Assembly: GCA_022561385.1 (NCBI GenBank)
Contig: JADFRG010000008.1
Coordinates: 22,459-86,458 of the forward strand
DNA: 64,000 nucleotides
Direction of reading: 5' to 3'
From: Chloroflexota bacterium
GTDB lineage: Bacteria; Chloroflexota; Anaerolineae; Anaerolineales; E44-bin32
Both the position numbers and the translations under genes were made by a program. This document shows positions 21,813-39,361 of this stretch, piece by piece; position 1 is the first letter of the stretch; every line of letters starts with the position of its first letter. The notes below the pieces were generated by a model. The model made no database searches. It saw only the letters and a list, made by a program, of their open reading frames with translations, and was not told the DNA's origin.

Positions 21813-21814
21813 GC

Positions 21815-21960
21815 GTGGGTGCATGGGCGCTGGGGTGCTGGGGAGCGCTCTCGCATACTCGCTCGCCGACAAATGCATACATTCAACCGCCGCGTGCTCC
21901 CGTACTCCCCAGCTCCCGCGCACGTCGGCTCCCCTGCTCAGGAGCGCCCCTGCACCTTTG
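21815..21960. repeat. Intergenic G-rich/C-rich palindromic element, copy 1
   Basis: GGGTGCATGGGCGCTGGGGTGCTGGGGAGCGCTC ... GTGCTCCCGTACTCCCCAGCTCCCGCGCAC...CTCCCCTGCTCAGGAGCGCCCCTGCAC. It resembles the elements near 35.7, 38.1 and 39.2 kb. Confidence 0.6.
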
Positions 21961-35623: not shown

Positions 35624-35689
35624 TCTCGACTCCCGATCGTAAAGTCACGAAGATTATAGTCCGCTTCCACTCCCGGCGCGTAATCTAAG

Positions 35690-35880
35690 CAGGGGAGCGT
35701 GAGAGCAGGGGAGTCCCTGGGCAGGGGAGCGCTGGAGTTGCTGGGAATGGGTGCTTCCGGAAAAAAGAGCCACGGCAACTGGGCACTACAGCTGGCGTCT
35801 AGGCTCCCCCGCCCGCAGGCTCCCAGGCACCCCTGCTCTCAAGCTCCCTGCTCTCACGCTCCTCTGCTCAACAGTACAAT
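35690..35880. repeat. Intergenic G-rich/C-rich palindromic element, copy 2
   Basis: GCAGGGGAGCGTGAGAGCAGGGGAGTCCCTGGGCAGGGGAGCGCTGGAG ... GGCTCCCAGGCACCCCTGCTCTCAAGCTCCCTGCTCTCACGCTCCTCTGCTC. Confidence 0.75.
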
Positions 35881-38033: not shown

Positions 38034-38039
38034 GCAGAG

Positions 38040-38280
38040 CCACTTGGGAGCAGGGGAGCTGGGGGGTGTGCGGAAGTTGCAGTGCTGCCGTCCTGGAGAG
38101 AACGTGAGCGCATCAGAGCAAATCGTGCGGGCGTGCCAAAAACATCAGCCGGATTTCGCGCGAAATGCTCCCTCTCCTCTCGTTCAGGCGTTCCTAAGCT
38201 CTCCGAACCCCTGCTCCCGCGCTCCCCTGCCCCCGCGCACCCCGACCTCCGCGCCCCCCTTCGCTCGAGTCTCAGCCTTC
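38040..38280. repeat. Intergenic G-rich/C-rich element, copy 3
   Basis: TTGGGAGCAGGGGAGCTGGGGGGTGTGCGG ... CCCCTGCTCCCGCGCTCCCCTGCCCCCGCGCACCCCGACC. Confidence 0.65.
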
Positions 38281-38296
38281 GGCCCTTGGCTTGCCT

Positions 38297-38573
38297 ATGA
38301 GCAGCGCCCTGCCACGCTCAGTCGAGCGGCTGCCTGCAGCCCATCAGGTCGAACCCTGCCTCACGGAATCTTTGCCTATGAGCAGCGCCCTGCCACGCTC
38401 AGTCGAGCGGCTGCCTGCAGCCCATCGGTCGAACCCTGCCTCACGGAATCTTTGCTTATGAGCAGCGCCCTGCCACGCTCAGTCGAGCGGCTGCCTGCAG
38501 CCCATCGGTCGAACCCTGCCTCACGGAATCTTTGCCTATGAGCAGCGCCCTGCCACGCTCAGTCGAGCGGCTG
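38297..38573 (+). repeat. Tandem 80/81-bp direct repeat duplicating the recR translation-start region (four starts)
   Basis: ATGAGCAGCGCCCTGCCACGCTCAGTCGAGCGGCTG at 38297, 38378, 38458 and 38538. Inter-copy spacer CCTGCAGCCCATC(A)GGTCGAACCCTGCCTCACGGAATCTTTGCYT. Confidence 0.97.
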
Positions 38574-39146: not shown

Positions 39147-39149
39147 AGG

Positions 39150-39312
39150 CTGGGGACCTTCTGAGCGGGGGAGCGTGGGCGAATAGGAGCTTGGGAGCCA
39201 GCTTGTGCGTGCTGGGCCTGTGCGTTTGCTCCCTTGCCCCCTGCTCCGTCGCTGCCCCGCTCAGAAGCTCCTCTGCACCGCCGCTCCCCTGCCCCCCGCG
39301 CCCAAAAAAGCC
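39150..39312. repeat. Intergenic G-rich/C-rich element, copy 4, upstream of the rRNA promoter
   Basis: GAGCGGGGGAGCGTGGGCGAATAGGAGCTTGGGAGCC ... GCTCCCTTGCCCCCTGCTCCGTCGCTGCCCCGCTCAGAAGCTCCTCTGC...CCGCTCCCCTGCCCCCCGCGC. Confidence 0.7.
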
Positions 39313-39333
39313 CCCCGCGCCTACGGACAAACC

Positions 39334-39361
39334 TTGACTTCAGCCCCAGCCCCCTTATAAT
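39334..39361 (+). promoter_or_regulatory. Probable rRNA operon promoter
   Basis: TTGACT (39334-39339), 16-nt spacer, TATAAT (39356-39361), about 250 nt upstream of 16S. Confidence 0.8.

Follow-up and report, generated by a model that had tools for sequence, protein, structure and literature searches.

The four intergenic regions analysed here are a dispersed family of octamer repeats, in which a G-rich arm of NNGGGAGC units is followed by a C-rich arm of GCTCCCNN units. Arrays occur only in spacers, the hexamer within the unit is kept while the remaining dinucleotide drifts, and paired arms follow the order G then C both here and in unrelated genomes. In a pair of sister species the length of one array has changed by an exact multiple of eight, and the flanking genes are nearly identical. 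We consider it probable that these octamer-period intergenic repeats are slippage-driven spacer DNA, tolerated at gene edges and able to form hairpins and G-quadruplexes (G4), with any function being putative.

Four paired-arm elements in the window

The window is the whole 64-kb stretch of DNA that was analysed. A chain detector (GGGAGC or GCTCCC with at most one mismatch, spacing of ∼ 8n, score cut-off 3.5) found exactly eight arrays with a score of at least 3.5, one G arm and one C arm per region (arm chains, G then C: 21817–21949, 35693–35863, 38046–38258 and 39153–39303). Outside the four regions the detector found no chained GGGAGC or GCTCCC words in the window, and there were zero matches in the reversed sequence and in ten local shuffles. 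With these controls empty, the common G-rich-left, C-rich-right architecture given in the preliminary description is real, and the observation of four regions with mirrored arms is confirmed. The arms had been placed 100–200 nt apart; the detected arms are separated by 30–154 nt. Two features had been overlooked: the words sit on an 8-nt grid, and the polarity is fixed. The parts are as follows.

21813–21850, + strand: element 1, G-rich arm; NNGGGAGC-like octamers, starting directly after the rsgA stop codon
21817–21843: element 1, G4 motif within the G-rich arm
21890–21960, + strand: element 1, C-rich arm; GCTCCCNN-like octamers, toward the convergent coaE
35686–35760, + strand: element 2, G-rich arm; folds end to end onto the C arm
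35796–35872, + strand: element 2, C-rich arm; 40 nt before the dnaX start
35806–35833, − strand: element 2, G4 motif in the C-rich arm
38036–38075, + strand: element 3, short G-rich arm; immediately downstream of the ybaB stop codon
38160–38262, + strand: element 3, C-rich arm; detected core 38213–38258
38208–38243, − strand: element 3, G4 motif in the C-rich arm
39147–39215, + strand: element 4, G-rich arm; immediately downstream of the recR stop codon
39220–39312, + strand: element 4, C-rich arm; upstream of the promoter-like site of the rRNA operon
39286–39316, − strand: element 4, G4 motif at the C-rich arm

Element 1 is flanked by the convergent genes rsgA and coaE, element 2 by a tatA-like ORF and dnaX, and element 3 by ybaB and recR. 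Element 4 follows recR and is succeeded by a promoter-like site (39334–39361) in front of the rRNA operon (the tatA-like name comes from a reading of the translation, the other neighbour names from Pfam). Three of the four fall within 3.7 kb, in one tatA/dnaX/ybaB/recR/rrn stretch. The meaning initially attached to the nearness of replication, repair and rRNA genes is not supported, as three elements share this stretch and the fourth is between rsgA and coaE. The elements are found in convergent, divergent and co-directional spacers alike, so their placement does not point to a common gene function.

Two other features adjoin the elements. The site directly after element 4 is a strong sigma-70-like promoter (TTGACT, 16 nt, TATAAT; 11/12 matches) and is probably the promoter of the rRNA operon. 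Immediately after element 3 there is an 80-bp tandem repeat (38291–38573; 3.5 copies, 98% alike), each copy of which repeats the recR start (ATGAGCAGCGCCCTGCC...); recR is therefore preceded by several near-identical copies of its first codons.

Anatomy of the repeat unit

The repeat unit is 8 nt long, NNGGGAGC on the left and its complement GCTCCCNN on the right. Word spacings are multiples of 8 in 61 of 90 cases inside the elements versus 29 of 249 elsewhere (12.5% expected). Tandem Repeats Finder independently reported periods of 24, 15, 16 and 16 in elements 2, 3 and 4, and blocks of 32, 48 and 64 nt are duplicated within long arrays. In 197 in-register units from this genome, conservation is 78–97% at the six hexamer positions, and the other two are almost free; units were picked out through near-matches to the hexamer, a procedure biased towards it, but to the same degree at each of its positions. 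Best preserved on the G strand are the GC that follows the A (94–97%) and the third G of the tract; the first two G (81–85%) and the A are kept less well. Only the octamer arms match between the four elements and their cores are unrelated, in line with the original view of word-based arms that are no clean copies of a single transposon.

In all six pairs of this genome the G arm precedes the C arm; in other genomes this order prevails by 14 versus 1 (a few arms are counted twice there). Strong C arrays have weaker G chains on their 5′ side, not on their 3′ side (13 versus 1 in this genome, 30 versus 9 in cyanobacteria).

Distribution in this genome and in others

The genome that contains the window comprises 2.9 Mb in 94 contigs; its 16S is no more than ∼ 80% identical to the best plasmid-borne 16S, from Thermomicrobium, and its placement in Chloroflexota is tentative. 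GCTCCCNNGCTCCC, with at most one mismatch, occurs 157 times in it, versus 39 for the reversed pattern. Chance occurrence of the words might be considered at a GC content of ∼ 59%, but this count, the strong 8-nt period and the empty reversed and shuffled windows refute it, and we give it practically no weight. In the window and targeted stretches, arrays occupy at least 19 spacers, including some weak two-unit cases, and none of 27 arrays overlaps coding sequence as called with a simple custom script, on which this figure depends. The proposed location between genes is thereby upheld. The largest array has 42 detected units over 354 bp. A 400-kb sample from five other contigs, of matching composition, contained no arrays, so the family is regional or clustered. 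The enrichment anticipated genome-wide is thus borne out by the counts and by the lack of coding overlap, but not as an even spread. Contamination of the bin by foreign array-bearing contigs was rejected, since tetranucleotide profiles agree.

Several arrays begin no more than 15 nt from a stop codon. TGAGC stop codons were rejected as seeds of the arrays (3 of 27 stops next to arrays versus 42 of 801 other stops, p = 0.18). In this genome the nearer gene is the one at which the G strand starts in 16 cases versus 10 (p = 0.33). Contig C5 ends inside a C-rich octamer array (L002, 18379–18475); the assembly therefore probably breaks at such arrays and under-counts them. At 2670–2775 of the same stretch a different palindrome (GTCATTGCGAGGAGCGCAGCGACGAAGCAATT ... 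GGAGATTGCTTCGCTACGCTCGCAATGAC) stands beside a G-rich array and looks like another dispersed palindromic family.

A three-unit array was found in 6 of 301 sampled genomes of the phylum, with 32 matches (12 of them in this genome) versus 3 for the reversed pattern. A four-unit scan of named genomes yielded at least 119 stretches. Among the matches listed, most are from Cyanobacteria and Phycisphaerae, and Chloroflexota, Armatimonadetes, Methylomirabilota, Latescibacterota, Nitrospinota and others are also represented; in this list the hexamer array is common to Cyanobacteria, Planctomycetota, Chloroflexota and other groups. Some matches are perfect single-unit repeats (e.g. Edaphovirga, Micromonospora) and may be ordinary slippage. 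One Phycisphaerae genome has about 950 three-unit matches and one Anabaena 83; both were picked because they matched, and the counts show extent, not frequency.

All 40 arrays examined in the Phycisphaerae genome lie outside coding sequence. There the G strand begins next to the closer gene by 33 versus 4, whatever the gene direction (cyanobacteria: 21 versus 9). As 20 of its arrays follow stops and 17 precede starts, placement there follows the spacer edge and not gene direction. Spacers of Phycisphaerae bacterium 8_bin.18 (L069, L120, L123, L143, L145, L150) are packed with nested repeats, with octamer arms outside and inverted GTAGGGTGCGTCATCGACGC blocks, GGGTGCCCCATC arrays and heptamer GGGAACA arrays inside. 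Carriage by phage was rejected: viral contigs hold few arrays, mostly perfect single-unit repeats, and their 24 stretches are only somewhat more than the 11, 15 and 14 of scrambled C-rich controls. Carriage by plasmids was also rejected, there being no plasmid match for element 2.

Folding and G-quadruplex potential

Element 2 (35686–35872) folds end to end at −113.2 kcal/mol (z = −6.7 versus shuffles). Folding is modest for element 4 (39147, z = −2.4) and element 1 (21813, z = −2.1), and element 3 (38036, z = −0.8) folds no better than shuffles; because whole-sequence shuffles mix both arms, all of these z values overstate selection on pairing. The long imperfect hairpins suggested at the outset are thus exceptional in element 2, modest in elements 4 and 1 and unsupported in element 3. 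An apparent mirroring of unit order throughout the elements in a first permutation test was due to cuts at random phase, which disrupted the register; with units in register the signal vanished. There is no overall excess of mirroring (in-register permutation p = 0.37, from few units and with low power; cross-element p = 0.38). Mirrored order holds for element 2 alone, from its folding and its outer units. Accordingly, word order does differ between the arms of most elements, as had been stated, and less so in 35686–35872, where the outer units largely match.

The arrays could be functional RNA hairpins at transcript ends or leaders (mRNA stabilizers, attenuators or unusual terminators), kept by selection on pairing. 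The very stable fold of element 2, the paired arms that are always inverted and the array starts within 15 nt of stop codons are all consistent with this. However, element 3 and the mirroring tests do not fit, and neither does placement by spacer edge in the Phycisphaerae genome. In 4.1 kb scanned for terminators (elements 2–4) only one weak GC-rich stem with a T-run was found, beside element 4, which is fewer than in shuffles; a canonical intrinsic terminator at the arms in this stretch was therefore rejected. A search of Rfam 15 returned only rRNA and tRNA at gathering scores and one irrelevant match (E 0.18). We regard selected RNA hairpins as unlikely.

There is exactly one canonical G4 motif per element, and together these make up 4 of the window's 7; the suggested proneness to G-quadruplexes is to this extent supported as a prediction from motifs. 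Selection for G4 formation near genes, with the arrays acting as switches, would account for these motifs, and the heptamer relatives discussed below form G4 in vitro (PMC4692102). However, in this genome the GC that would lie in the loop is better conserved than the two G at the start of the tract, and the motifs fall on either strand. The pattern of base conservation does not favour G4 as the main constraint, and we consider such switches very doubtful.

Comparison of sister species

Four orthologous comparisons were made between two sister genomes of the phylum (G002 and G015); two further ortholog searches in the sister species found none, the genomes being incomplete. At locus one the array is conserved in place. 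Locus two shows heavy turnover of units beside a nearly identical coding flank. At locus three the C arm of one species has exactly three more octamers (24 nt) between near-identical coding flanks, and this longer allele also has extra sequence on the G side. Such a change in octamer steps is direct evidence of tandem expansion or contraction. At locus four (L273, G015:C307 versus L033, G002:C265) an octamer element in one species corresponds to an unrelated hairpin-like sequence in the sister, with flanks ∼ 97% identical; one palindrome has apparently been replaced by another.

Locus four would also fit non-autonomous mobile palindromes (REP- or MITE-like) that are moved by a transposase recognizing the iterated arm ends, as would the dispersal in spacers, the fixed G-to-C polarity and the patchy occurrence across genomes. 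In contrast, the array conserved at locus one and the octamer-step change in place at locus three are not expected of mobile units, and the elements have unrelated cores and no fixed ends. No match to the Y1 (RAYT) transposase family PF01797 was found in the genome of the window (G000, 92% complete). The GTAG tag, sought on both strands, was found only once, at an internal position of element 2, and in none of the other three elements; the CGTC tag occurs once per element and never at an end. A conserved palindromic core common to the copies was not found. REP/RAYT identity was rejected on the lack of Y1 transposase, end tag and common core, and mobile palindromes in general seem to us distinctly unlikely.

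Discussion

By analogy, the closest known counterparts of the window elements are the G-rich intergenic heptamer repeats of Xanthomonas (GGGAATC) and Nostoc/Anabaena (GGGGA(C/T)T) described by Rehm and colleagues (PMC4692102). These are mainly intergenic and dispersed, have no known function, lie close to whichever gene is 5′ of the G strand, in either gene direction, and form G4 in vitro; inverted pairs are common in Xanthomonas and few in Anabaena (PMC4692102). The octamer arrays likewise have a G-rich short tandem unit with a G-tract and some free positions, are dispersed and mainly intergenic, and form inverted pairs in convergent orientation; their G4, formed in vitro by the heptamers, are predicted from motifs. 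They differ in unit length (8 nt, NNGGGAGC, not 7), core and host lineages, and are clustered, not evenly spread, in the genome of the window. With an 8-nt unit they are a variant and not a member of the heptamer family.

Other known repeats are more distant. A prokaryote satellite survey reports an octamer satellite family, (AGGGGAGT)2, in Mesorhizobium ciceri, with a G-rich unit very close to AGGGGAGC at several sites in one genome; it is given there as one species' family, and the section on it describes no inverted arms or positional rule (PMC6749651). The TAACTGA heptamer repeats of Beggiatoaceae, Cyanobacteria and Bacteroidetes are also short-unit intergenic direct repeats, patchy across distant phyla, but are not G-rich, lie mostly just upstream of start codons and are not described as inverted (PMC4679880). 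REP/BIME sequences with RAYT transposases are likewise dispersed, hairpin-capable intergenic palindromes (PMC3733652), from which the window elements differ in having no stem-foot tetranucleotide tag or conserved 20–40 bp unit and no Y1 transposase in their genome. A literature search on the exact octamers gave papers on subjects other than bacterial repeats.

We suggest that the arrays grow and turn over by slipped-strand events or unequal recombination in octamer blocks, and that they are tolerated because spacers can absorb them. The 8-nt grid, the 32-, 48- and 64-nt blocks, the 24-nt sister difference and the turnover at a second site support turnover in octamer blocks. The G arm may fold back on the C arm as a hairpin or cruciform, and template switching there could keep the arms inverted. 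If the arrays influence genes at all, a hairpin or G-quadruplex at the gene edge would be responsible, and not a coded product or a sequence-specific regulatory site. The reading as spacer repeats is also supported by the conserved hexamer with its nearly free dinucleotide, by the absence of arrays from coding sequence here and in the Phycisphaerae genome, and by the G-to-C order. By analogy, the inverted pairing and a positional rule like that seen in the Phycisphaerae genome, both published for heptamers (PMC4692102), argue for it too.

Some observations do not fit slippage alone. It leaves unexplained why one hexamer recurs in many phyla and why two bases vary while six do not, nor does it explain the clustering in the genome. 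The hairpin in place of an array at locus four looks like replacement, and the absence of significant overall mirroring of unit order within elements gives no support to fold-back copying. Alternatively, GGGAGC at an 8-nt step, patchy in unrelated phyla, might be maintained by a common factor, passed on horizontally, that binds to this hexamer or copies it. We think this quite improbable; if true, the arrays would represent a widespread type of spacer DNA that is written or maintained, and not simple slippage.

Detailed descriptions of G-rich short-unit spacer repeats exist for two bacterial groups; the unit there is 7 nt long and no cause is known. The 8-nt variant of distant phyla combines one conserved hexamer and two nearly unconstrained bases with a fixed order of arms and turnover in octamer steps, and is a comparative handle on the origin and upkeep of such repeats, for which Phycisphaerae bacterium 8_bin.18 would be the best model. 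Some of the assembly breaks and 'palindromes' met with in environmental genomes may likewise be due to octamer arrays.
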